In this document: piece after piece, positions 406 through 31,381 of the stretch
Position numbering within the stretch: position 1 is the stretch's first letter
Layout: every line of letters begins with the position of its first letter
Assembly: GCA_022774645.1 (NCBI GenBank)
Contig: JALFKQ010000007.1
Coordinates: forward strand, 1 to 64,000
Direction: 5' to 3'
Length of the DNA stretch: 64,000 nt
Source of the DNA: Mycoplasmatota bacterium
GTDB taxonomy: Bacteria > Bacillota_I > Bacilli_A > RF39 > UBA660
Notes under the pieces: model-generated
Database searches by the model: none
The model's input: only the letters and a program-made list of their open reading frames with translations
What the model was told of the DNA's origin: nothing
Position numbers and translations under genes: made by a program

Positions 406-609
406 TTAACTTCTAATAATTAATCGTATACATCTATATACTTTATTAAGTTTGTAATTGTTTAAACAACTATGAAAGATACAGTTATAACTTCTACTTC
501 CATCATTACCATATGTTCTAAACTCTAAATCTATAGTTTTTACAACATATGTAGCAATTAGTTGTTTAAAATACTCTTTTTTCAACTCGTTTAATGTTTC
601 TTCATTCAT
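406..609 (-). CDS. Hypothetical protein, 67 aa
   Basis: ATG at 609 is preceded by a good ribosome site (GGAG, 6-base spacing), which supports real translation. The protein has a charged N-terminus (MNEETLNELKKEYFKQ) and a Cys/Tyr-rich C-terminal half; no known domain. The C-terminus is basic and odd, and the next frame continues directly, so the gene may be frameshifted near 405. It sits in a run of tiny minus-strand ORFs (650-673, 406-609, 264-398, 1-286) resembling a mobile-element operon. Confidence 0.5.
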   Translation of the reverse strand: MNEETLNELKKEYFKQLIATYVVKTIDLEFRTYGNDGSRSYNCIFHSCLNNYKLNKVYRCIRLIIRS

Positions 610-649
610 AATTAACTCCGTTTCATAACATTAACTTGTTGTTAACATT

Positions 650-673
650 TTATGGTGGTCTAAAGTCACTCAT
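650..673 (-). CDS. Possible 7-codon leader peptide MSDFRPP
   Basis: ATG at 673 is preceded by a strong Shine-Dalgarno (GGTGGAGGATGAATT). The frame reads M-S-D-F-R-P-P and stops. A consecutive Pro-Pro immediately before a stop is a slow context for translation termination, known from other leader peptides; whether this one arrests ribosomes is inference. The next ORF starts 40 bases downstream. It could be a regulatory leader or simply a chance ribosome site. Confidence 0.3.
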   Translation of the reverse strand: MSDFRPP

Positions 674-1412
674 AATTCATCCTCCACCTATTATGTGAAC
701 ACAGAATATGTGAATGATATTACTGATTCAGAATCAAGACAAAATAAAACAGAGATATATTTCAACCTCTGTTCTAATTGTGTTACAGTTTTCTAACACA
801 AAATGTTTGATTTCTCTTTCTTCTTTAGTTTTAGTCTCTTTATTAGTGTTTCTGTTAGTTGTTGTGTTGTTTGTTTTGTTTGGTTTTAATGGATTCGGTT
901 AATAATGTAGCCAAATATTCTTTCAATATACGCACCTGTAGAGCAAACCTATGCACGTTGCTTCTTCTAAGTTGAAGGTTCATAGGTGGGTCTATAAAAG
1001 CTACCTTTTAGCATTATACTCTTATACCCCTTCTTTAACTAACCGGTATTTTAAACAAAAAGTATAAGAAATATATTGCTGGTTTAAGGATTATTTAATC
1101 CCTTAACCACCATGATAATACAAAATGATTTAAAGCTACCTTTTAGCATTATCCCCTTATACCCCTTCTTTAACTAACCGGTATTTTAAACAAAAAGTAT
1201 AAGAAATATATTGCTGGTTTTAGGATTATTTAATCCCTTAACCACCTTGATAGTACCAAATGATTTTAAAAAAGACAACCCCTCTTTTAATATTTTTTAA
1301 AAAAACTTTTTTCATATACTTTTGTCACTTGTTTAACTAAAAAGAATAGAAATATACTATTATACTTCTATTCACTTGTAGAAACCTTTGAAATCACACT
1401 TAGTACTAAAGG
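674..1412. other. Noncoding stretch with hairpins and tandem repeat
   Basis: No convincing gene over 740 bases. On the plus strand a 62-codon frame at 714-902 is Leu/Val-rich with no ribosome site. On the minus strand 737-902 encodes an open 55-codon frame (ending YLCFILS) without a start codon, perhaps a gene remnant. Two small hairpins lie near 751-776 (AACAGAG/CTCTGTT) and 779-798 (GTGTTA/TAACAC). Positions 905-1017 fold into a longer nested hairpin (AATGTAGC with GCTAC and CATTA; ACCTATG with CATAGGT). A 135-bp tandem repeat follows. The stretch separates the defence genes from the small ORFs at the left edge. Confidence 0.5.
997..1267. repeat. Two tandem direct repeats of about 135 bp
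   Basis: Copy 1 is 997-1131 and copy 2 is 1132-1267, nearly identical apart from a few substitutions. Each begins AAAGCTACCTTTTAGCATTA and contains two inverted-repeat segments: AACCGGTA...TTGCTGGTT, and a hairpin with arms GGTTTAAGGATTA and TAATCCCTTAACC. No open frame is shared by both copies in a protein-like way. The beginning of the unit is also the 3' arm of the larger hairpin at 905-1017, so duplication copied part of a structured element. Function unknown. Confidence 0.8.
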
Positions 1413-3203
1413 TTAATTATTAATAACATTATTATTTACAAAATTATAGTTAGTTAATGTTTCATAGCCTCGCTTGATAACGCTTGCCATCAATTTTCTA
1501 CGTTGGTTTAAGAATTCCTTATAATCTAATTCATACCACTTTTCAGGAAGTGCATGAATAGTCTTTAATTCTTCTAATCTTTCTTGAGGAACATATAACG
1601 AAACCATTCTAGGGTAATAATCCTTTGGTGGTTTATCACTAATATCTATGTTATCATGCCATTCAATATATGCATAATTTGCAATTTGATTAGTATCTTT
1701 ATCATCAACTATACCAATTCTATGTAAATACTCTTTTGGAAACAAATGATGTCGTTCTACTGATTTTTTAGTTCCATCTAAATTACCACTAAACAGTAAT
1801 GATACTTTTAAATCAGAAAACAGCGCTTTAACATCCATTACAGATAATGCTGCAATATATGCATTCCAAGCTGGAGAATTAGTTGAAGATGTTGATAATT
1901 CTTCAGGTAATATTTGTTCAAAATAATCATCAGTTGATGCTAATCTTAGTTTCTTATTTACATATTCTCTAAAGCTATTTTCATCTTTTTGCAATTCAGT
2001 TAATTCATTTAATTGTTCTTGTACTGTAGTCTCAAATGAATTAGTATACGTACCCCTAAGCACAGTGATATAGAACCATCTTGCTATTAAATTTCGTAGC
2101 AAATTACTATTGACATTAAAATCATATTTTCCAATCAAATAAATAATATATGTAGCAATAAGTGCATTAGTTGAAGTTATGTTAGTATCAGTTAAATATC
2201 CAGCAGATATTACTGATTTAATAAACTGATTCCAATTCTCTATATTTAATACATTTTTTAATCCAGCTCTCAAATCAGCAAATGCTGTTCTTTTTGCTTC
2301 TTCATCTTCTATTTTATTAGAGCCTCTTTTCAATTCTATTCCCCTTAGAACTTGATAAGCATATTTTAATCTTCCTCTTTTAAATATATATGCCATTGCT
2401 ACCCTAACAATATGTCTTGGCTCTAATTCCATTAATTTAATAGTTGCATGTTTATTTTGTTCACAGAACCTTTCTATATCATCTCTTAAATCTGGATCAT
2501 TAACAGATATTAATGTTAAAATAAAATCATTTTCAGTTAACTTAACTCCACCAGAATTAACACGAGTAAATATATCAGCAACTTTCTCTTCATCTACTTC
2601 TTGATTGATTGTTAAAGTACCTATGTGATAACTTCTTAAATTAATCAAATCACTAATTGTCTTTTCAATTTTTGCTTTATCTTCAAAAGTTAATTCACTT
2701 TCGTCTTTCTTCAATCTGCTTTCATTTACTTTATCAATATAGTTTCCTATAAAGCTATAAGTAGAAGGTGCTAAGTACAAATCACTTACATCAGCAATCC
2801 ATTCAGGATTTCTCTCAATACTAGCATTTTGAACGTCAAACTTTTCAGTTAAAGGATTAAATGCAATTTTAATTCTCTTATTCCCTTTAACTTTAATTTC
2901 CTTACCTGTCATTATAGCATAAAGAGATGTTAATCTTTGCTGTCCGTCTATGATTAAGTAATTATGCTTCGCACTTTTTTCATCAATTCCTATATTTCTA
3001 CTGTCATCTTCTCTACCCTGTGATTCCCATAACAATAAATATCCAATAGGATAGCCTTTGTACATTGAATCTAGAAGGTCTCTTATATCTGATGGTTTCC
3101 AAACATACTCACGTTGAAGATCTGGAACAGCTATGCTTCCAGTTTCTATTTGTGAAATCAATTGTCCTATTGTATAAGATGTATCACTATATATTTTTTC
3201 CAT
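1413..3203 (-). CDS. DUF262/DUF1524 (GmrSD-like) nuclease protein
   Basis: 596 aa. The N-terminal DUF262 domain shows VPDLQREYVWK (about 26-36) and the signature DGQQR at 86-90, the NTP-binding/hydrolysis motif of this ParB-like fold. The C-terminal DUF1524 domain carries an HNH-type motif, RHHLFPKEYL, near residue 480. GmrS and GmrD halves are joined in one chain, as in known type IV enzymes that cleave modified DNA, and length is full for a fused protein. Start at 3203 has ribosome site AGAGGTG. It is the last gene of the leftward defence block after hsdMSR and the OLD-like pair. Target modification cannot be told from sequence. Confidence 0.88.
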   Translation of the reverse strand: MEKIYSDTSYTIGQLISQIETGSIAVPDLQREYVWKPSDIRDLLDSMYKGYPIGYLLLWESQGREDDSRNIGIDEKSAKHNYLIIDGQQRLTSLYAIMTGKEIKVKGNKRIKIAFNPLTEKFDVQNASIERNPEWIADVSDLYLAPSTYSFIGNYIDKVNESRLKKDESELTFEDKAKIEKTISDLINLRSYHIGTLTINQEVDEEKVADIFTRVNSGGVKLTENDFILTLISVNDPDLRDDIERFCEQNKHATIKLMELEPRHIVRVAMAYIFKRGRLKYAYQVLRGIELKRGSNKIEDEEAKRTAFADLRAGLKNVLNIENWNQFIKSVISAGYLTDTNITSTNALIATYIIYLIGKYDFNVNSNLLRNLIARWFYITVLRGTYTNSFETTVQEQLNELTELQKDENSFREYVNKKLRLASTDDYFEQILPEELSTSSTNSPAWNAYIAALSVMDVKALFSDLKVSLLFSGNLDGTKKSVERHHLFPKEYLHRIGIVDDKDTNQIANYAYIEWHDNIDISDKPPKDYYPRMVSLYVPQERLEELKTIHALPEKWYELDYKEFLNQRRKLMASVIKRGYETLTNYNFVNNNVINN

Positions 3204-3236
3204 AACATTGCACCTCTATATTCCATACTAATTATA

Positions 3237-3590
3237 TCAAAAAGATATTCTTTTTCCAAACAGTTTACTCTCAATAATACATAATATTATAACAACAAAT
3301 AGCATAATTCCTGAAAGCCAGTATATATTATGTATAAAATAACTTATTCCAATTGTTATAAAAGTTAATAGCGCATAATTAATGAAGAATCCCAAACTTC
3401 CTATCCATCTATCCTCTTTTCTACTGGTGTACCAAGTTCCAGTAATTGTGTAAGCTAAACAAACATAAACACCACCAAAAATCAAATTAACTATTTCTGC
3501 AAAATTCTTGTCAACAAATAGATTAATAAAAGGATTAGGTAATAAAAACTGTCTTGCTAGATAACTTAATAATTTCATTATTCTGTACAT
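3237..3590 (-). CDS. Small integral membrane protein, 117 aa, unknown
   Basis: Predicted from composition to have three or four membrane helices (around residues 30-50, 65-82 and 88-108), with positively charged loops (TSRKEDRW) between. No domain recognised. It lies 12 bp downstream of the OLD-like ATPase gene and 33 bp upstream of the DUF262 gene on the same strand, so it is co-transcribed with defence genes. A membrane effector or an unrelated passenger are both possible. Confidence 0.6.
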   Translation of the reverse strand: MYRIMKLLSYLARQFLLPNPFINLFVDKNFAEIVNLIFGGVYVCLAYTITGTWYTSRKEDRWIGSLGFFINYALLTFITIGISYFIHNIYWLSGIMLFVVIILCIIESKLFGKRISF

Positions 3591-3602
3591 AAGACACTCC
3601 TA

Positions 3603-4838
3603 TTATTTATTAAGAAACTTTGTAAATTTGTTAATGTTTCTTTTAGAAGAAAAATACTCATCAGCAGCATAGACTTTAACTTCATTTGTACTTAATCCTT
3701 TATTATTAAAGTTTGATTTGTCAATGCTAAAGTGGTTTTCTAAATCAACATCAAATAATTTGACAACATCTGAATAATATTTTTCCAAATACATTGTTAT
3801 ACCATATGCAGTATTATACTTATCAGCATTCTTTTTATATTTTTTATCACTATCAGTGATTATTAAAATATCTTTTCCAATTTTCGAAAATAAATTAGCA
3901 AAAAATATCATGTAGCATTTACCATATGTAATATAGAAATAATTATCATGTAATTCCTCTATATTTAGTTTTCTTATAATTCTATTTTCAGATGGTCCCT
4001 CTACTAATACTATTCTTTTATAAAATAATGCTCTATAGAACTGTTCGGATTTCAATATATCATTCAAATATAAATTCAATAATTTTGGTTCTTCATAAAA
4101 ATGCATTTTATTTCTAATTCCACCATCTACATCTAGCTTTTTATCTTTTATAAAATTTTCAAAATCAATTGTTGATTCTTTATAAATTTTTTTAACATCA
4201 TTTAATGTTAACTTAATCATAGAATTTTTATAAGAAGATTTTTTAATATCAAATGTTTTATTAATAAAAATAATATTATTTATTGAGACATTTAATAAAT
4301 TACATAAACTATAGCTATGTGTTGAAACGATTAATTTTATTCCAGCTTTTTTTAAACTTCTAAACAAAACAGATATCTTTCGTAATCCTAAGTCATCTAA
4401 GTAATTCTCTGGTTCATCAAAGAAAATATATTTAATAGGGTTCATATATGACTTATATATAATATTAAAAATATTAAAAGCCTTTTCTTGTCCTTTAGAT
4501 TTATGTTTAATTGATCTATAAAAATCTATTTCTTTTTTGCAAAAAGATATCAAATCTAATAATTTAGGATCAATTTTATGAGTTTTTACCTCTTCTCTAT
4601 CCTTTGTTTCGCCATAATACTTACTTTTAGGATAAATGAGATACTCATTAGTTTCTAAATTGGGGATAGCATCACTTCTAAGCATTTTAACATCTAAATT
4701 TCCATCTTCAGAAATATATATACTTTTTCCCTCTGTAATATCTTGATACCTTTTCAAATTATAAGTTTTACCACTACCATTAGGACCTATCAAAAATAAT
4801 GGTTCAGTAGATTTTGAATTTAGATACCTTTTAATCAT
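3603..4838 (-). CDS. OLD-family-like ATPase with C-terminal TOPRIM domain
   Basis: 411 aa. ABC-type ATPase: Walker A GPNGSGKT at 18-25, a signature-like SKGQEKA at 114-120, Walker B YIFFDEPE at 137-143, and a switch-histidine motif STHSYS at 172-177. The second half has TOPRIM features: VLVEGPSENR with Glu280, and IITDSDKK with Asp329 and Asp331. This order (ATPase then TOPRIM nuclease) is that of OLD-family nucleases such as GajA, though the protein is shorter. The ATG at 4838 overlaps the end of the 446-aa gene by 8 bp with ribosome site GGAGGTGG, so the two are translationally coupled. Probably the ATP-gated nuclease of a two-gene defence system; the partner is not a UvrD helicase, so it is not Gabija. 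Confidence 0.82.
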   Translation of the reverse strand: MIKRYLNSKSTEPLFLIGPNGSGKTYNLKRYQDITEGKSIYISEDGNLDVKMLRSDAIPNLETNEYLIYPKSKYYGETKDREEVKTHKIDPKLLDLISFCKKEIDFYRSIKHKSKGQEKAFNIFNIIYKSYMNPIKYIFFDEPENYLDDLGLRKISVLFRSLKKAGIKLIVSTHSYSLCNLLNVSINNIIFINKTFDIKKSSYKNSMIKLTLNDVKKIYKESTIDFENFIKDKKLDVDGGIRNKMHFYEEPKLLNLYLNDILKSEQFYRALFYKRIVLVEGPSENRIIRKLNIEELHDNYFYITYGKCYMIFFANLFSKIGKDILIITDSDKKYKKNADKYNTAYGITMYLEKYYSDVVKLFDVDLENHFSIDKSNFNNKGLSTNEVKVYAADEYFSSKRNINKFTKFLNK

Positions 4839-6171
4839 GGGCTACCACCTCCAGCAATAAATAGCAAAAATAATCAAACAATTCTGCTGATATTTTGGGA
4901 CTTGGTTTATATTTGTTATTTAAAACTTTTTCTAACGTAAAAAATCCTTTTTCATATTTATACAATTGTTTATATTCTAAAGAAAGTAATTTCAACAATT
5001 CATTAACTTTTTCTATTAAATCATTGTATGTTTCTGGCAATTCAGTACTAATTCTTGATTCATATGCTATATCAAAATAGTTTTCTAAAATATATTTTCC
5101 TAATTTTTGATAATATGGTTCATATTTTCCATAATCCAAGTTACCATTTAATTGCCACTCAAACATTGCAGGTGAAATTATACCATTCATTTTTTTCTTT
5201 ATATTATATTTTTCTAATTCTTTTTTCACTTCATAAGGTAATTTATTAAATTCACCCTCCCAGAAAACTATTTTATCAGATACAAAATCAACTAAAATAG
5301 AATCTTTCGTATACATATCAATCATAGCAAATTCCAAGAATATATATCTTTCTTTTAAATATTTTAAACATTTTTTATCAAAAACGATTAAACCAGCATC
5401 CACATCGTCATTCCAATTACTTTCATTAATATTTCTTATATTTCCATTTAATTGATTTGTAATAATCTTCAAATCATTATCCTTTGGTGTAATATAATCT
5501 ATATCAAATGTACCTAATAACCATATAAAATCATTTGTTCTTTCTTTGGTAATGAGACACCCATCTTTCTTATATTCAACAAAATCATCTATTTTATGTT
5601 TTTTATCCCTATATTCAAATTCGACAGATAAAACATAATGAGGAAAAACATTCTTCTCTGTATTAATAAAAGAAGTAATAGATTTCTTCAGCAATAATAT
5701 TTCATCATCATTTTTAGAAATTAAAATCGGCCATTCGTTGGTTGAAAAAGTCGGATCATAATACACTAAATTTGCTACGCTTTTATTATCTTGTGTTTTT
5801 TCATATATCGCAGATTCATTATCATTATATAAATATGGATTTAAAGTATAAACAGTATGGCGAAAGTAATTTTTTTGAACAATTAAGTTATATATATAAT
5901 TACTTATATCATTTTTTTCTCTTTCATCAGATCCATCAATAAAGCCATAAGATAAATTCATTTTCATCCATGTTTGTTTAATATCTTTTTCATCTGGTCT
6001 AAGAATAAGTTTTGCATAGAATTCTCCATCATAGTTTTCTTTCGTAGATAAAAATGATCCCTCTTTATAAATACCAGGAATATAATTACTACTATCATAT
6101 GAATGATAGAATTCTCTAATACATTTTATTACTTCTTCTACATTGTTACATTTTCTTAACTTATCCAACAT
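4831..6171 (-). CDS. Unrecognised protein, 446 aa, coupled to OLD-like ATPase
   Basis: Soluble acidic protein without membrane segments. No motif of a known nuclease, helicase or toxin could be recognised. The centre has alternating beta-like stretches and the last 120 residues look helical. It begins with a good ribosome site (AGGATAAAAT before ATG) and ends inside the start of the OLD-like gene, so a 1:1 partner relationship is likely. The gene sits directly after hsdR but behind an intrinsic terminator. A sensor or specificity subunit for the ATPase/nuclease is inference only. Confidence 0.7.
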   Translation of the reverse strand: MLDKLRKCNNVEEVIKCIREFYHSYDSSNYIPGIYKEGSFLSTKENYDGEFYAKLILRPDEKDIKQTWMKMNLSYGFIDGSDEREKNDISNYIYNLIVQKNYFRHTVYTLNPYLYNDNESAIYEKTQDNKSVANLVYYDPTFSTNEWPILISKNDDEILLLKKSITSFINTEKNVFPHYVLSVEFEYRDKKHKIDDFVEYKKDGCLITKERTNDFIWLLGTFDIDYITPKDNDLKIITNQLNGNIRNINESNWNDDVDAGLIVFDKKCLKYLKERYIFLEFAMIDMYTKDSILVDFVSDKIVFWEGEFNKLPYEVKKELEKYNIKKKMNGIISPAMFEWQLNGNLDYGKYEPYYQKLGKYILENYFDIAYESRISTELPETYNDLIEKVNELLKLLSLEYKQLYKYEKGFFTLEKVLNNKYKPSPKISAELFDYFCYLLLEVVAHD

Positions 6172-6186
6172 ATTTTATCCTCCAAA

Positions 6187-6228
6187 CTAAAAAAGAGCAT
6201 ATTCCATCTTAAAAATGAAACACACTCT
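6187..6228 (-). terminator. Intrinsic terminator after hsdR
   Basis: On the minus strand a long stem with several G-T pairs (AGAGTGTGTTTC with GGAATATGCTCT) is followed by TTTTTT. It lies between hsdR and the 446-aa gene, with only about 15 bases from the T-run to the next ribosome site, leaving no space for a new promoter. Downstream defence genes therefore probably depend on read-through or a promoter inside hsdR. Confidence 0.65.
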
Positions 6229-6255
6229 ATTATTTATATATATTATACCACTAAA

Positions 6256-9200
6256 TTAGAATTTATTGTTAGATATACTGAAGAATTTATCAAAGAATTC
6301 TAATAATTTATCTATAACCTTATTTTTCTTTTCTTGTCTATCATTATTAGGAGTAAACATACTCATTGGAGGAAGTATTGTTGATACCTCTGTTCCATTA
6401 GTTTCTACTCTTCCCTGTTCGAATGATCTTTGGATAAAGTTATATGTTTCTTCTTTATTAAGATTCTCTTCAGCAATTATCTTATCTAACTCTTCTTTCT
6501 TTTTACTATTCATAAATGATTCAAAGTCAGCATATACATTCGAGTCTTGATCTAATGATTCAATGAATGCCATGATTAAATCTTTCTTATTTCTTAAATC
6601 TGGACTAGCCATAATTGTCTTTTGAATAGTTACAAGGATTTCTTTATCTTCCATGTTACTATCATGATATTTCTTAACTAATCCTAAGATGTAATCAATA
6701 TTAACTTCTATTGATTTAATCAATTCCATTTCAAATACTACATCTTCAGTAACATCAGTTTTTTCTTGTTTAGCTTTATTTCTAAATTCATTATAGAGTT
6801 CAATATAAATACTATGGTAATCTTGTTTATCTCTTTCATTGATTAATTCATCGTCTTTGAACTCATCAAATGAAGATAAGATATTTGTTACTTTTAATAT
6901 TGCACCATATAGTTTAATAAACTCTTTTTGTTCTGCTTCGCTTTGCATAAGTTCTCCAGGCGCAAATTTAGTAGTTAATTTTTCAACTAATGATTTATAT
7001 CCCTCAAATGTTTTACCATTATCATCTTCATATCCATAGTAGTAATCATTATATGGTTTTAATAAAACTATTCCATGAGCTTCTTCATCACCGAATTTAG
7101 CTAATGCTTCATTAAGTCTATCTTCTAAGTTTCTAAATGAAACAATATTACCATATGTTTTAACACTATTTAAGATTCTGTTAGTTCTTGAGAATGCTTG
7201 AATTAATCCATGCCATTTTAAGTTCTTATCTACCCATAATGTATTTAATGTTTTAGCATCAAATCCTGTTAAGAACATGTTAGCAACAATTAAAATGTCT
7301 ATTTCTCTATTCTTCATTCTTAGAGACACATCTTTATAATAGTTTTGGAATCTTTCTGATGAAGTATCATAACTTGTTCCAAACATATTGTTATAGTCTT
7401 TAATAGCATTTTCTAAGAATGTTCTGTCATCAGTACTTAATGCTTCAGTGGATTCAGAGTTTTCATCAATAACTCCATCTTCTCCATTTACTCCATATGA
7501 GTATATTAAAGCTACTTTTAAATTACTATTTTTTAATGCTAATGATTTCTTAAATTCAGCATAGTATTCCTTAGCCATTTTAATGCTCGATACGGCGAAT
7601 ATTGAGTTGAAGCCGTTAATACTCTTCTTAGACTTTATTTCTTCAGCATCGTGCTTTTTAGCCACCGCTACGACGTTATCTAGAATTGAATATACATAGC
7701 TTTCTGATGTTTTAGTTTTAGTACTAAAATGATCTATTATATATTCAGTAATCATAGCAATTCTCATTTGATTATCAAATAGTTTTTCTTCATCTATGTT
7801 ATATACTTTTTCATCTTTAACATCATCACGAAGATCTACTCTTCCAACATATTCATATCTAAATGGTAATACATTCTTATCTGCTATAGCATTTACTATT
7901 GTATAAGTATGTAATCTTTCTCCAAAAATTTGTTCTGTTGTTTCAGAAATACCTTTTATTGTTCTAGCATTCTCTGGGAATATTGGAGTACCTGTGAATC
8001 CAAACAAATAGTATTTATTAAATTTCTTGATTATAGCTTTATGCATATCTCCAAATTGAGATCTATGACATTCATCAAATATAAATACTACATGTTTATT
8101 AAACACATCACTTCGTTCATTCTTTTTAATGAATTGCGATAGCTTTTGAATAGTAGTAATTATTATCTTAGCATTTGGATCGTTTAATTGTTCTTCTAAT
8201 ACTTTTGTTGATGTATTAGAGTTCGCAGCTCCCTCTTTAAATCTATCGTATTCTTTCATTGTTTGATAGTCTAAGTCTTTTCTATCTACAACAAATAACA
8301 CTTTATCTATAAAATCTAATTTACTAGCCAATTGAGAAGTTTTAAATGAAGTTAATGTCTTTCCTGATCCTGTTGTATGCCAAATGTATCCACCTGATTT
8401 TAATGTTCCATAGAACTTATTATTATATGCAATAGTAATTCTATTTAATATCTTTTCAGTAGCTACTATTTGGTATGGACGCATTACTAATAAATCTTCT
8501 TCGCTTGTAAATACACAATATTTAGTTAATACATTTAGTAATGTATGTTTAGTAAAGAATGTTTTAGCAAAATCAATTAGATCTGTAATACCATTATTCT
8601 TTTGATCTGCCCAATATGAAGTAAATTCAAATGAGTTAGATTTCTTTTTCTTTTGATTGTTAATATGGAACTCTCTTGTAGTATTTGAATAATATTTAGT
8701 TAATGTTCCATTTGAAATCACAAATATTTGAACAAAGTTATATAATCCTGATCCTGCCCAGAAAGAATCTCTTTGATATCTTTCTATTTGATTAAAAGCT
8801 TCTCTTAAATCAATTCCTCTTTTCTTCAATTCAACATGAACTAAAGGTAGACCATTTACTAAAATTGTTACATCATATCTATTATCAAAATTACCATCAT
8901 TATTAACATATTGATTTAACACTTGAAGACTATTATTGTGAATATTATTTTTATCTATTAAATAGATATTTTTCTTTTCTCCAGAATCAAGAGTTATTTC
9001 TTGCTTGTAGTCTTCTTGAATTAATCTTGTTTTTTCAATTATGTAATCATTTTTATTAGCTATTACTTTAGTAAAGAAACTATCCCATTCTCCATCAGTA
9101 AAATGATAATTATTAAGTTTTTCTAATTGTCTTCTCAAGTTAAGAATTAATTCATCTTCAGAGTTAATATTTAATCTTTCATAACCCTGTTCAACTAAAG

Positions 9201-9330
9201 TTTTAATTAATTCTTTTTCTAACGCATCTTCACTTTGAAAAGATGTTGCTACTCTTTTTAAACCTGTATATTCGGCTAATACTGTAGAGTTATCATTTTC
9301 ACTTATTAAACCTATACTACTCACTAACAC
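6256..9330 (-). CDS. hsdR: Type I restriction enzyme R subunit
   Basis: 1024 aa, full length. N-terminal nuclease of the PD-(D/E)xK fold: Asp153, the E-L-K motif at 167-169 (HVELKK), and a QxxxY motif at 181-185. Superfamily 2 translocase follows: Walker A TTGSGKT, DECH box (FIFDECHRSQ), GFTGTPIF, and later helicase motifs ending around DSKTLNT-like and QAFSRTNR. The C-terminal helical region binds the methylase core. Start is GTG at 9330, overlapping the hsdS stop, with GGAG just upstream; a second GTG at 9324 is also possible. It translocates and cuts unmodified DNA with HsdM and HsdS. Confidence 0.95.
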   Translation of the reverse strand: MLVSSIGLISENDNSTVLAEYTGLKRVATSFQSEDALEKELIKTLVEQGYERLNINSEDELILNLRRQLEKLNNYHFTDGEWDSFFTKVIANKNDYIIEKTRLIQEDYKQEITLDSGEKKNIYLIDKNNIHNNSLQVLNQYVNNDGNFDNRYDVTILVNGLPLVHVELKKRGIDLREAFNQIERYQRDSFWAGSGLYNFVQIFVISNGTLTKYYSNTTREFHINNQKKKKSNSFEFTSYWADQKNNGITDLIDFAKTFFTKHTLLNVLTKYCVFTSEEDLLVMRPYQIVATEKILNRITIAYNNKFYGTLKSGGYIWHTTGSGKTLTSFKTSQLASKLDFIDKVLFVVDRKDLDYQTMKEYDRFKEGAANSNTSTKVLEEQLNDPNAKIIITTIQKLSQFIKKNERSDVFNKHVVFIFDECHRSQFGDMHKAIIKKFNKYYLFGFTGTPIFPENARTIKGISETTEQIFGERLHTYTIVNAIADKNVLPFRYEYVGRVDLRDDVKDEKVYNIDEEKLFDNQMRIAMITEYIIDHFSTKTKTSESYVYSILDNVVAVAKKHDAEEIKSKKSINGFNSIFAVSSIKMAKEYYAEFKKSLALKNSNLKVALIYSYGVNGEDGVIDENSESTEALSTDDRTFLENAIKDYNNMFGTSYDTSSERFQNYYKDVSLRMKNREIDILIVANMFLTGFDAKTLNTLWVDKNLKWHGLIQAFSRTNRILNSVKTYGNIVSFRNLEDRLNEALAKFGDEEAHGIVLLKPYNDYYYGYEDDNGKTFEGYKSLVEKLTTKFAPGELMQSEAEQKEFIKLYGAILKVTNILSSFDEFKDDELINERDKQDYHSIYIELYNEFRNKAKQEKTDVTEDVVFEMELIKSIEVNIDYILGLVKKYHDSNMEDKEILVTIQKTIMASPDLRNKKDLIMAFIESLDQDSNVYADFESFMNSKKKEELDKIIAEENLNKEETYNFIQRSFEQGRVETNGTEVSTILPPMSMFTPNNDRQEKKNKVIDKLLEFFDKFFSISNNKF

Positions 9331-10585
9331 TCAACTCCTCAAAACTTAATAATTTATTTTTATAATATTCATATTGTTTTCTTCTTAATTGTATTTCAGC
9401 AGGTAAACCTACTGTAATGTCATTAACTAATTTATCAAATTTATCTAAGATATTTGATATTCTTTCCTGAGTTTCTAAATCAGGAAGTTCAAATTCCACA
9501 TTTTTTAAATCTCTCATTGGTACACTCGATACAGGACTTCCTACAATATAATCAGAATATAGTTTCTTCATGTAATCAGATCTCATTAAATGCATAAGAT
9601 AGACAGGATTAATTATTTCTTTTTTAGGTTTTAAAATATAAACTCCCTCTTTTACATTCCAATTATCTGGGGTTTCTTCTATCAAGGAAACTCTACCAAT
9701 GGTACCTGTGCCACTAAAAAGAACATCACCAATTTCTAGATTTGCACGTTCATTTATTCTTAACAATCCTTCTTTATTAACTCGGTCTTTACTTTCCCAA
9801 TATCTAACATTTCTATCACCAATTTCCCTGACTGTTACATAATGACCATCAGCATCTTCGGTATTTAATCTAAAAAATTTTCTAGGATTCAATCCTGTTT
9901 TTAAAGATTGTAATACTTCTTCTAATTTATAAGTTTTTGTTTCTCCTTTTATATCAAATACTTTTCCACGCCAAAACTCGTATTGATTCTTTCTCGCTTC
10001 TAGCTCCGCTTCTAGCTCCGCTTCTAGCTCTCCAAATTTATCAAGAATTCGTACTATTTCTTCTTGTACTTCTAATGGAGGAATAGGAATATTTAATTTC
10101 ATATAATCTTTATTTGAAATATAGAATCTTGTTACACCTCTAACTGCTTTAAATAGGTTACATCTAAATGGTTTTGAATTAAGATAGTAACTAATAAATG
10201 TTGTGTTAATTATATTCTTATATTCATCTTTTAATCTTAATCCAAATAGATGATCATCCATAAATATTCCATCTTGAATTTCATCTTCTATAACAGAAGC
10301 AATTGCACATTCATCAGGAACCTCAGATGCACTTGTTAATAATAAATCTCCTTGAAGTAGTGTTGTTTGTTTTGTATTTTTGACTGTTGCATATGGCAAT
10401 TTTGTAATATCAATTTTATTATTCTTATATACATTCATGTAATCAATAAAACGGCAATTACCTTCATCTGCCCATTTATTTGTAACACCAGTCATGCCAG
10501 AAAATAACTCAAATACATCTTTTAATGATTTGTACTCAACACCATTAGGACATAATTTCTTAATTAAATCATTAATCTTACTCAT
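9317..10585 (-). CDS. hsdS: Type I restriction specificity subunit
   Basis: 422 aa with two target-recognition domains, each followed by a conserved helical spacer. The central spacer ends near residue 205 and contains the repeated tetrapeptide (E-A-E-L) three times, from a perfect-period 12-bp DNA repeat. I chose ATG 10585 (MSKINDLIKK) because AGAGGA lies 8 bases upstream; the upstream ATG at 10594 lies too close to that site. The gene overlaps hsdM by 8 bp and the hsdR start by 14 bp, so all three are coupled. The two recognition halves define a bipartite target that cannot be read from sequence. Confidence 0.93.
   Translation of the reverse strand: MSKINDLIKKLCPNGVEYKSLKDVFELFSGMTGVTNKWADEGNCRFIDYMNVYKNNKIDITKLPYATVKNTKQTTLLQGDLLLTSASEVPDECAIASVIEDEIQDGIFMDDHLFGLRLKDEYKNIINTTFISYYLNSKPFRCNLFKAVRGVTRFYISNKDYMKLNIPIPPLEVQEEIVRILDKFGELEAELEAELEARKNQYEFWRGKVFDIKGETKTYKLEEVLQSLKTGLNPRKFFRLNTEDADGHYVTVREIGDRNVRYWESKDRVNKEGLLRINERANLEIGDVLFSGTGTIGRVSLIEETPDNWNVKEGVYILKPKKEIINPVYLMHLMRSDYMKKLYSDYIVGSPVSSVPMRDLKNVEFELPDLETQERISNILDKFDKLVNDITVGLPAEIQLRRKQYEYYKNKLLSFEELSVSE
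9996..10031. repeat. Three tandem 12-bp repeats in hsdS linker
   Basis: Plus-strand unit GCTTCTAGCTCC occurs at 9996-10007 and 10008-10019, with a third copy at 10020-10031 differing in its last base. Unit length is a multiple of three, so gain or loss of a copy changes linker length by four residues without breaking frame. It encodes the LEAE-type repeat between the two recognition domains. In EcoR124I and its variant, a change from two to three TAEL repeats in the same place alters the spacer of the recognised site (established knowledge). Confidence 0.92.
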
Positions 10586-12146
10586 AACGATCATCCTCTA
10601 ATTCTTTGATAATCGCTTCAAGTTCTTCTCTAATCTTTTGTTGTCTTGGTACCACTTCAGCTAATTTCTTATTAACTTCTTCTATATCAATAGTAGAATC
10701 TTCACCAACTGTTTTTAAATAAGAATTAACTGATATATTATAATCATTATCTTTAACTTCTTCATATGTAGCTAAGTATGATTTATTTTCTACACTTTTT
10801 CTATCTTTTAATAAAGAAACAATGTTTTCAATATTTTCATCAGATAACTTGTTCTTATTTGTAGTTCTAACACATTCATCAGTAGCATCAACAAATAAAA
10901 TATTATTATCAGATTTATTCTTTTTAAGTACCAAAATACAAGTTGCAATGGATGTACCAAAGAATAAATCAGGAGGTAATTGAATAACAGTATCTACAAA
11001 GTTATTATCAATCATGTATTGTCTAATCTTTTGTTCTGCTCCACCTCTATAAAGAACTCCTGGGAACTCAACTATAGCCGCAGTACCTTTTGGAGATAGC
11101 CATGATAACATGTGCATTGTAAATGCTAAATCAGCTTTTGATTCTGGTGCTAATATTCCAGCTGGAGCAAATCTTTCATCGTTTATTAAAATTGGATTAG
11201 ATTTACCTGCCCATTTAATTGAATATGGAGGATTAGATACTATTGCATCAAATGGTTCATCATTCCAATGAGCTGGATGAATTAGTGTATCTCCTCTTTC
11301 AATACTAAAGTTATTGTAATTAATGTTATGTAAGAACATATTTATTCTAGCTAAGTTGTAAGTTGTAAGATTTATCTCTTGACCGAAGAATCCCTCTCTT
11401 ACATTTTCTTTTCCAAGTATCTTAGCAAATTTTAAAAGTAATCCACCTGAACCACATGCTGGATCGTATACTTTATTAACGGAAGTTTTATCCATAATAA
11501 CTATTCTTGCAAGTAATTCCCCAACTTCTTGAGGAGTAAAGAATTCTCCACCTGATTTACCAGCTGATGAAGCATACATTGTCATCAAAAACTCATATGC
11601 ATCTCCAAACAAATCTATGTTATTATCTTCATAATCTCCAAAATTTAAATCTCCAATAGCATTTAATAACTTAACAAGTTTTTCATTTCTTTCATCAACA
11701 GTGTTACCTAATTTATTATCAATAGTAAAATCATCGAATAAACCTTTAACATCATCTTCTGATGCTGATCCTCTAGCCGATGATTCTATGTTATTAAATA
11801 CATTTGAAATAACGACATTTAAGTTTTCATTTTTATCTGCGCCTTTTCTTATATTGCAGAATAATTCACTTGGAAGTATAAAGAATCCTTTTTCATCAAG
11901 TATTTGTGATTTTCCAAGTAACGCTTCTTCATCAGAAATATTTCTATATTGAAAATCTGTAATACCTGCTTTTCTTTGATTTTCATTAACGTAGTTTTCA
12001 ATATTCTCTGATATAAATCTATAAAATAACAATCCTAAAACGTATTGTTTAAAATCCCATCCATCTACGGAACCTCTTAACTCATTTGCAATTTTCCAAA
12101 TAGTTTTATGTAGTTCTTCTCTTTCTCTTTCTTTTTTATTATTCAT
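10578..12146 (-). CDS. hsdM: Type I N6-adenine DNA methyltransferase
   Basis: 522 aa. N-terminal HsdM helical domain, then a SAM-binding motif (DPACGSGGLL) and catalytic NPPY (SNPPYSIKW) typical of gamma-class adenine methylases. ATG 12146 (MNNKKERERE) is chosen because AGGAG lies 7 bases upstream; the ATG at 12167 lies upstream of that site and lacks one. First gene of the hsdMSR operon. Two HsdM with one HsdS methylate host DNA and form the core of the restriction complex. Confidence 0.95.
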   Translation of the reverse strand: MNNKKEREREELHKTIWKIANELRGSVDGWDFKQYVLGLLFYRFISENIENYVNENQRKAGITDFQYRNISDEEALLGKSQILDEKGFFILPSELFCNIRKGADKNENLNVVISNVFNNIESSARGSASEDDVKGLFDDFTIDNKLGNTVDERNEKLVKLLNAIGDLNFGDYEDNNIDLFGDAYEFLMTMYASSAGKSGGEFFTPQEVGELLARIVIMDKTSVNKVYDPACGSGGLLLKFAKILGKENVREGFFGQEINLTTYNLARINMFLHNINYNNFSIERGDTLIHPAHWNDEPFDAIVSNPPYSIKWAGKSNPILINDERFAPAGILAPESKADLAFTMHMLSWLSPKGTAAIVEFPGVLYRGGAEQKIRQYMIDNNFVDTVIQLPPDLFFGTSIATCILVLKKNKSDNNILFVDATDECVRTTNKNKLSDENIENIVSLLKDRKSVENKSYLATYEEVKDNDYNISVNSYLKTVGEDSTIDIEEVNKKLAEVVPRQQKIREELEAIIKELEDDRYE

Positions 12147-12176
12147 AACTTCACTCCTAAAAATCATTCTAAAATA

Positions 12177-12211
12177 ATTATATCATACCATTTGCCTATT
12201 TTTATACTCAA
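12177..12211 (-). promoter_or_regulatory. Probable hsdMSR promoter
   Basis: On the minus strand TTGAGT (12211-12206) and TATGAT (12187-12182) are separated by 18 bases; an overlapping TATAAT is at 12182-12177. Located about 40 bases before the hsdM start. Sequence match is moderate. Confidence 0.5.
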
Positions 12212-12340
12212 TTTGTTTCATATTCTTATCACAATAATTTTAATAAAATAATATAAATATACTACTCCAAACAAAATCATTTTGTATTCATTTTGAAATC
12301 AACCTTAGACTTTAAAATGTCACCTAAATGTCACCTAGAG

Positions 12341-12372: not shown

Positions 12373-12505
12373 AATAAAATGAGAAGCTTTCGCTTCTCTT
12401 CAGGGGGTTTTGGTTGAACACTTTCACTCTTATATTCGTAAAAGTATTCTGACATATTTCTATGTCAATTTAATTATATAATGATTAGTTGATTTTTGTC
12501 AATTA

Positions 12506-13081
12506 TTAATTTTTTATTTTACAAGATTTTATATAATTATAAACCTCATCCCAATTATTTACTCTTTTACACTTAGTGTTTCTTGTTATATTTATTTTTG
12601 AATTAAATACAACAGCATTTATATTATTTTCTAATAAAGATTCACATGTATCAATCGCATCATCAAACATAATATCTATATTTTCTTTTTTACAAATATC
12701 CGCTTTATATGAATAAGCTGTTAAAATTTTATCATATTTAATTTTGTTTTTATCTAGAAAGTCTTTTACATATTTATTTACATCTTTATAATACTTATCA
12801 CTTCTTGCTGTTATAAAATATATTTGATTACCCTCTTCTTTTAATTTATCAATTGTTTCTTTAGCACCTTTTTTAATTGGTTGCTTTTGTCCCATTTCAC
12901 AAGCATAATCACTAAAGAATTCTATTATTTCTTTTTCTGTAAAGTTCCCTCTTATTATTTTATCTATATTATTAATTAGTACTTTATTATCACTATATTT
13001 GTAATCGTATTTATAAGCATATTCTCTTACTATATCACATGAGTCTATTAGTGTATCATCTATATCAATGCCTATTTTCAA
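12506..13081 (-). CDS. HAD-family 5'(3')-deoxyribonucleotidase-like protein (YqfW type)
   Basis: 191 aa. HAD motif I DIDDTLID at residues 5-12 with the nucleophile and acid/base aspartates, motif II threonine in FITARS near 95, and motif III/IV MFDDA near 137. Size and motif spacing fit the NT5C-type phosphatases that dephosphorylate nucleoside monophosphates; substrate is inferred from the family. Cytoplasmic, single gene with no obvious partners. Confidence 0.75.
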   Translation of the reverse strand: MKIGIDIDDTLIDSCDIVREYAYKYDYKYSDNKVLINNIDKIIRGNFTEKEIIEFFSDYACEMGQKQPIKKGAKETIDKLKEEGNQIYFITARSDKYYKDVNKYVKDFLDKNKIKYDKILTAYSYKADICKKENIDIMFDDAIDTCESLLENNINAVVFNSKINITRNTKCKRVNNWDEVYNYIKSCKIKN

Positions 13082-31307: not shown

Positions 31308-31381
31308 GCAGGTGTAGTTTAATGGTAGAACTCTAGCCTTCCAAGCTAATAACGTGGGTCCGATTCCCATCACCTGCTCCA
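31308..31381 (+). tRNA. tRNA-Gly (TCC), encoded CCA
   Basis: Cloverleaf with acceptor GCAGGTG/CACCTGC, D-loop with GG, anticodon loop CTTCCAA (anticodon TCC), T stem GTGGG/CCCAT-type, discriminator T and encoded CCA. Two oddities: the T-loop is TCCGATT rather than TTCGATT (C at position 55 instead of T), and the first anticodon-stem pair is C-A. It has its own strong promoter and terminator. It may be a normal Gly tRNA with unusual bases, a decaying copy, or a specialised Gly donor. Confidence 0.9.

Follow-up and report, generated by a model that had tools for sequence, protein, structure and literature searches.

A tandem 135-bp repeat as the possible duplicated 5' domain of a predicted structured RNA carried by an integrated mobile element

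The window, i.e., the whole 64,000-nt stretch of DNA analyzed here, is the start of one contig (C35) of a Mycoplasmatota bacterium genome of 1.4 Mb in 36 contigs. A stretch of approximately 800 nt without a convincing gene (610-1412) near its left end contains a tandem repeat. Tandem Repeats Finder reported a single strong array in the 64 kb, at 997-1266, with a period of 135, 2.0 copies, and a score of 498; the second-best array scored 72. In an ungapped comparison, the copies (997-1131 and 1132-1266) were 96% identical, with 6 differences in 135 positions. A previous interpretation made from the DNA letters alone (the sequence-only reading) had described two nearly identical 135-bp copies at 997-1267. 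The array score and the copy identity bear out this repeat and its start; the true end is 1266, one base less. The absence of a coding pattern, claimed at the same time, was also borne out: among open frames of at least 20 aa overlapping the unit, the longest has 38 aa, and the frames are not alike between the copies. The repeat had further been placed in the only long noncoding stretch of an island. The noncoding stretch stands and the island does not, because the RNA proposed below belongs to a mobile element on one side of the repeat; the type I restriction genes on the other side are a mere neighbor.

Positions 1-141 of the window are identical to the last 141 bases of another contig of the same genome (C2), which probably continues leftward from the window. 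This identity suggests an assembly overlap setting of 141 bases, exceeding the 135-bp period. Together with the 6 differences between the copies, it suggests that the repeat is not an assembly duplicate. The junctions point to slippage at a short CTTT/TTTA homology as the likely origin of the duplication. A genome-wide dispersed repeat (MITE or BOX-like) was dismissed because the 135-bp unit occurs at one locus only in its own genome. A degenerate third copy at 1314-1356 was considered as well. Its local match to the unit (score 30, with 4/500 shuffles equally good) is no better than the best matches elsewhere in the window (41, 30, and 30), and it was dropped.

To the right of the repeat, a defense cluster occupies 1413-12167. 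It comprises a GmrSD-type gene (PF03235), a type I restriction-modification system (hsdM, hsdS, and hsdR), an OLD-like protein with AAA and TOPRIM domains, and a 446-aa protein without a Pfam match. In the window and also in G017, a genome of the same genus, the module of type I restriction and GmrSD genes lies between degenerate direct repeats (71-74%; approximately 1291-1403 and 12197-12319 in the window), an arrangement suggestive of insertion or exchange of the module at these repeats. hsdS holds three perfect copies of a 12-bp repeat (CGCTTCTAGCTC) at 9995-10030, and three are present in G017 as well; repeats of this kind change target spacing in some type I enzymes. Upstream of hsdM lies a candidate small RNA gene on the minus strand (12376-12502), with a TTGACA-N18-TATAAT promoter (12502-12473) and a terminator hairpin (12401-12376). 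Relatives of approximately 12395-12520 are found in several genomes of the genus, at two places in one of them (G015); no Rfam family matched the candidate near its gathering score. A tie between the repeat and the GmrSD-type neighbor was rejected. One close relative of that gene (84% identical) was found without the repeat, and the corresponding place in G017 is taken by a different GmrSD-type gene (PF03235).

The features of the noncoding stretch are listed in Table 1. Read on the minus strand, the repeat looks like a doubling of the 5' domain within a longer predicted RNA gene, each copy holding hairpin 1 and a long, G.U-rich hairpin 2.

Table 1. Features of the predicted RNA gene and its surroundings, in window coordinates.
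Feature	Position	Strand	Details
Terminator-like hairpin	1339-1373	-	GAATAGAA...TTCTATTCTTTTT; seen in folds; kept in G017
Predicted RNA promoter	1250-1278	-	-35 TTGTCT (1278-1273), 17-nt spacer, extended -10 TGG-TACTAT (1258-1250)
Copy A of 135-bp unit (first in RNA)	1132-1266	-	holds -10 box, hairpin 1, and hairpin 2
Copy B of 135-bp unit	997-1131	-	3' end continues as in G017
Hairpin 1	1216-1243 (copy A); 1081-1108 (copy B)	-	from folds
Hairpin 2	1153-1206 (copy A); 1018-1071 (copy B)	-	3' strand GAAGGGGTATAAG same in G017
Variable middle module	897-996	-	terminal CTACATTATTAACC (910-897), counterpart of ..TTACTAACC in other loci
G-poor tract, then hairpin	778-896	-	mostly unstructured, ACTAA-type motifs; hairpin TTGTGTTA...TAACACAA (801-778)
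Intrinsic terminator of predicted RNA	741-774	-	GAACAGAGGTTGAAATATATCTCTGTTTTATTTT; kept in G017; counterparts in G266 and G276
Separate promoter candidate of gene 1 operon	714-742	-	TTGTCT-N17-TATCAT; palindrome TGATTCTGAATCA between boxes
Truncated gene 1	433-609	-	59 residues match 99-aa G017 protein, 88% identical; ORF continues to 406 with unrelated residues

The hairpin at 1339-1373 would end transcription of the GmrSD-type gene ahead of the RNA gene; it is absent from the output of our terminator scan, which demands at least 3 G-C pairs. The terminator at 774-741 was the sole terminator-like site that the scan reported in 400-1700, against 0.3 expected. The promoter scan returned 9 promoter-like sites in the region and 7.8 in shuffled sequences, i.e., no excess, and it missed the predicted RNA promoter, which has fewer than 9 of 12 consensus matches. 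The -35 box and the terminator both lie outside the interval given by the sequence-only reading. Relative to G017 and its single two-hairpin domain, the arrangement is kept on the side of the promoter by copy A and on the downstream side by copy B, which continues as in G017 with AAAAKGTAGYTT(T)TATAGACC. The middle module ends in TTATTAACC in the window and in TTACTAACC in the other loci. The apical loop of hairpin 2 contains ACCGGT in both copies (1177-1182 and 1042-1047). A kissing loop through this palindrome (ACCGGU in the RNA) was considered and dropped, as it is not present in the other three loci.

Ahead of gene 1, the stretch 714-742, with its own promoter candidate and palindrome, is kept in G017, so that the predicted RNA looks like its own transcription unit. 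Between this stretch and gene 1, a seven-codon mini-ORF (MSDFRPP-stop; 650-673, minus strand) follows a ribosome-site-like stretch, GGTGGAGGATG. G017 encodes the same peptide with two synonymous changes. The Arg-Pro-Pro-stop ending resembles some ribosome-arrest leaders.

Four loci were compared, namely the window, G017, and two genomes of other genera of the same family (G266 and G276). G017, one of 18 genus genomes searched with the window sequence, was reached through the sequence flanking the repeat; G266 and G276 were reached by a protein search from the gene 1 of G017. Window positions 433-855 and 1264-1403 are 87% and 88% identical, respectively, to one G017 contig (C41). Between these conserved flanks, the G017 sequence is related but has changed strongly, and it holds the two-hairpin domain once. 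The same order, i.e., promoter, hairpin 1, hairpin 2, middle module, G-poor tract, terminator, and gene 1, was seen in all four loci found. In each of them, TTGTCT-N17-TAnnAT is preceded by TG-N, and most of the spacer has diverged. Where gene 1 is intact (G017, G266, and G276), an SSB-family gene (PF00436 in Pfam) follows it directly.

Divergence is unevenly distributed along the locus. Between the window and G017, 133/164 aligned positions are identical in the upstream flank (81%), 176/350 in the RNA body (50%, a value lowered by the inclusion of the duplicated copy), 62/102 in the G-poor tract, and 123/137 in the terminator and leader (90%). Either selection or loose constraint may account for the divergence of the body. 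Duplications also differ from element to element. The 5' domain is duplicated in the window only. In G017, the middle unit is duplicated (75% identity over 85 nt, E 2e-10 within the locus). G276 perhaps has a duplicated 3' module, as the module end and the tract are repeated (79% over 42 nt, E 1e-6) in partly low-complexity sequence. Among the 1024 5-mers, ACTAA had the highest summed z over the four RNAs, being strong in G266 and G276 and weak in the window. The two ACTAAY motifs of the window are not a clear enrichment (49/300 shuffles as high). Enrichment of ACTAA would fit a tract bound as a single strand; the length of the G-poor tract is within the shuffled range in three of the four loci and above it in G276 only.

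Folding favored the minus strand in the window. The minus-strand copies fold at -34.5 and -36.1 kcal/mol (z -4.4 and -4.9), with none of 200 shuffles as good, which also bears out the internal inverted repeats noted earlier. The plus-strand folds are -20.4 and -17.6 kcal/mol (z -2.1 and -0.75; 8/200 and 40/200 shuffles as good). Both copies still fold strongly in spite of their 6 differences. In all four loci, the 5' domain folds more stably as the sense strand than as the antisense strand, and the strand difference is clear against shuffles only in the window. Fold z values outside the window are modest (G017, -2.5; G266, -2.3; G276, -1.8) and similar on the antisense strand of G266 (-2.2) and G276 (-1.85). 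The middle module of the window (z -0.9) and the second middle unit of G017 (z -0.7) fold no better than shuffles.

Changes within the stems bear on the choice between RNA and DNA. In hairpin 2, the 3' strand is identical between the window and G017 at 15/15 bases, and all 4 changes at paired positions of the 5' strand are U/C swaps opposite G; the partners were taken from each sequence's own fold, with some bias towards pairing. Because pairing is kept through G.U/G-C swaps, an RNA is favored over a DNA structure. In the middle module, the inner stem differs between G266 and G276 and is paired in both, with conserved ends. Of the 36 pairs that RNAalifold gave for these two loci, 2 had changes in both partners; they lie outside the stems discussed here, join promoter and body, and are unlikely to be biological. 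With four loci the covariation is thin, and it supports the RNA reading short of proof.

The relatives point to a mobile element as the carrier of the locus. In G266, the RNA locus is situated approximately 485 bp inside an insertion of approximately 15.4 kb. A truncated uvrB-like fragment borders the insertion on the left, and on the right it is bordered by a uvrB-like frame that has a start of its own. The left fragment has helicase domains (Pfam), and the two flanks, which we take to be uvrB from their motifs, have an imperfect repeat of 77 bp in common at 80% identity, approximately 15.4 kb apart. This arrangement would be expected if the insertion had supplied the gene with a new 5' end. 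The insertion encodes SSB, PcfJ (PF14284), two DnaB-like proteins, and three Phage_integrase-domain proteins. One Phage_integrase-domain protein is encoded approximately 9 kb from the RNA locus in G017, and the window remnant showed none. Neither a capsid protein nor a relaxase was recognized among the scanned element proteins, which represent part of the element. These contents make the element look like an integrative mobilizable element (IME) or a phage satellite.

In the window, the sequence past the break in gene 1 is part of another gene that extends into contig C2. A 284/285-aa protein without a family match is common to G017 and G266 (58% identical); a search for it in the window's genome, run without a positive control there, gave no match. 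Because gene 1 is truncated and this protein is unmatched, the window most likely holds an element remnant. The opposite end of the element is missing from the window. Gene 1 had no family match above the cut-off in the libraries used (NCBIfam for the window ORF, Pfam for G266, and PHROGs for G266 and G017).

Database searches returned few relatives. Among 4227 Rfam families, only two tRNAs reached the gathering score in the window; near-gathering matches were absent from 640-1420, where a loose threshold gave only weak ones, and from the G017 locus. A covariance search, which the sequence-only reading had recommended, was run with a model built from the two copies. It returned 3 of 291 family genomes at E<=0.5, comprising the own locus and two weak hits (0.18 and 0.19). 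With blastn, the repeat matched at least 142 of 147 relatives at E<=1, nearly all as short noise; the G017 match had an E of 0.004 (73% over 78 nt). At E<=1e-4, matches were found in 5 of 395 class genomes, the own genome included. The other four were discarded, three lying inside unrelated frames of 245-514 aa (L029, L030, and L031) and one being a 25-nt match (L003). A plasmid match (H1) was set aside as nearly the L029 sequence, although no frame above 60 aa spans it. No exact 26-mer of the repeat was found in the genome contigs searched. With at most one mismatch, the promoter pattern was found in 1 of 147 relatives, G017; it is a narrow pattern that misses the window's own promoter. The G276 RNA as a DNA query returned 3 of 291 genomes (G276, G266, and one match within a 521-aa frame) and did not recover the window. 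By protein search, gene 1 matched 18 of 291 family genomes at E<=0.01 and three at E<=1e-13 (own, G266, and G276); its profile matched 2 of 395 genomes, the own genome and one long frame. The viral collection yielded no repeat, no GmrSD relative, no gene 1 relative, and no sub-pattern; a viral locus (L074) with 22 residues matching gene 1 was discarded because its contig looks unrelated. Phages and plasmids gave no match for the G276 RNA, the G266 gene 1, or a 42-aa frame, and plasmids gave none for the 67-aa ORF of the window. From these narrow searches, the RNA locus seems rare. No description of it was found in the literature, judged by titles and the openings of abstracts, and the element RNA is apparently undescribed.

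We propose, with a probability of roughly 0.55, that an integrated mobile element encodes, at its left end, a structured untranslated RNA whose 5' domain has been duplicated in tandem to give the repeat, and that this RNA acts in trans as a scaffold or decoy. That it is a structured RNA carried by an element has fairly good support. Transcription would start just past the TACTAT box, at approximately 1245 on the minus strand, and stop at the terminator near 745, giving a predicted transcript of approximately 510 nt that carries hairpins 1 and 2 twice, the variable middle module, and the G-poor single-stranded tract. A trans-acting binding RNA is its most likely job; as such, it would bind a protein or another RNA as its partner, in the manner of a scaffold or decoy. 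Each structured module may be one binding unit, so that duplication of a module would alter dosage or specificity. The strongly changed body between a conserved promoter and terminator may reflect a fast-changing partner, such as a host, a helper phage, or a rival element. Most of the element has presumably been lost in the window genome, and the locus may be decaying. The sequence-only reading had suggested a small RNA gene, an origin-like element, or a recombination site. A small RNA gene is supported by the G.U strand bias, the promoter kept in all four loci, and the kept terminator; the repeat itself would be a duplicated 5' domain of that gene and not the gene. A recombination site finds no support, since the repeat occurs at a single locus in the genome and the uvrB repeats bounding the G266 insertion lie elsewhere. 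As to an origin-like element, the G.U pairs point to RNA instead. More tentatively, the four loci may represent a family of element RNAs in which the promoter, terminator, and domain order are fixed while modules are replaced or duplicated separately in each element, a pattern that would suggest an arms race in which a host or helper phage supplies the partner. If true, the locus would provide a compact, cloneable system for identifying the partner behind the change, by deletion or swapping of RNA modules.

The strongest competing explanation, for which we see a real chance short of even odds, is neutral debris, with a dead element in the window and the duplication a functionless accident of its decay. 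The truncation of gene 1, the 284-aa G017/G266 protein that had no match in the window genome (again without a positive control), and the restriction of the 135-bp duplication to one of four loci would all suit it. It sits less well with the intact promoter, terminator, mini-ORF, and hairpins of both copies, and with 6 differences that leave both copy folds strong. An antisense or immunity-type RNA that silences the element's own genes by pairing with their leaders, like P4 CI, P1 c4, or the PLE IIR transcript, seems unlikely. The RNA adjoins the gene 1-ssb operon with its own promoter and terminator, and satellites are described as carrying such RNAs (PMC7567579), but complementarity downstream of the RNA was no better than in shuffled sequences in all four loci (31, 57, 67, and 62 of 100 shuffles as good). 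Among 20 leaders of G017 and G266, only that of the G266 integrase stood out initially (0/60 shuffles); when the whole G266 element was scanned, it again ranked first among targets outside the RNA's own locus, and the next-best leader was that of a small G017 gene preceding the integrase gene (3/60). Once the leader was extended and shuffling was done in two ways, the G266 signal fell to chance level (117/500 and 60/500), and antisense action on this leader was dropped. The G017 tract likewise did no better against the small gene and the integrase (214/300 and 119/300 shuffles as good).

Hairpins upstream of ssb, as described for Frpo2 of F (PMC9849209), could also act in single-stranded DNA, as a replication origin, a recombination element, or a single-stranded promoter. 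Hairpin 2 is an imperfect palindrome, and the ACTAA-rich tract could be iteron-like. Against such a DNA-level role, which we consider improbable, hairpin 2 keeps its pairing through G.U/G-C swaps, the boxes of an ordinary double-stranded promoter lie outside the stems, a terminator separates the RNA from gene 1, and no relaxase was recognized in the scanned part of the element proteins. Type III toxin-antitoxin systems combine tandem RNA pseudoknot repeats with a ToxN/CptN/TenpN-type toxin, and the order of repeats, terminator, and small gene fits them in outline, with gene 1 as the toxin. We regard this assignment as highly improbable: the tandem 5' repeat is present in one of four loci, the 135-nt unit is far above the 35-45 nt or so of known type III antitoxin repeats, gene 1 has no toxin family match in the libraries tried, and ssb comes next.

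Most noncoding RNAs of satellites and integrative elements have no known role, and several such RNAs can be set beside the trans-acting element RNA proposed here. P4 CI and P1/P7 c4 are small RNAs of a satellite or phage near an early operon. The predicted RNA differs from them in that its complementarity to leaders is not beyond chance (20 leaders of two elements, and the downstream regions of four loci). These antisense RNAs are mentioned in the report on the PLE phage satellites of Vibrio cholerae, whose IIR transcript is described there as noncoding, located between gene clusters, and the most abundant transcript in that setting (PMC7567579). Like IIR, the RNA would be a noncoding transcript of an integrated element, here predicted from sequence and with no known helper. 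IIR is flanked by inverted repeats and is homologous, in antisense, to PLE leaders, whereas the window RNA has no antisense match beyond chance. GOLLD and ROOL are often near tRNA islands; by contrast, no tRNA was found in the scanned stretches around the four loci (L051, L052, L075, and L078), and the nearest in the window is at 31308. These two Rfam families of phages and prophages are described as large structured RNAs whose role on mobile elements is unknown and for which kissing loops are important, and phage RNAs as forming large complexes (PMC12286853). The predicted RNA is shorter, its ACCGGT loop palindrome is not common to the other loci, and neither family matched at E up to 10 (window 640-1420) or up to 5 (G017 locus). 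In Frpo, the -35 and -10 boxes are rebuilt inside a hairpin of single-stranded DNA; here, by sequence, both boxes lie outside the stems. As in Frpo of F-type plasmids, noncoding hairpins are found upstream of ssb (PMC9849209). Unlike in Frpo, an ordinary promoter lies upstream of the hairpins, a terminator precedes gene 1, and the G.U pairing is of the RNA type.
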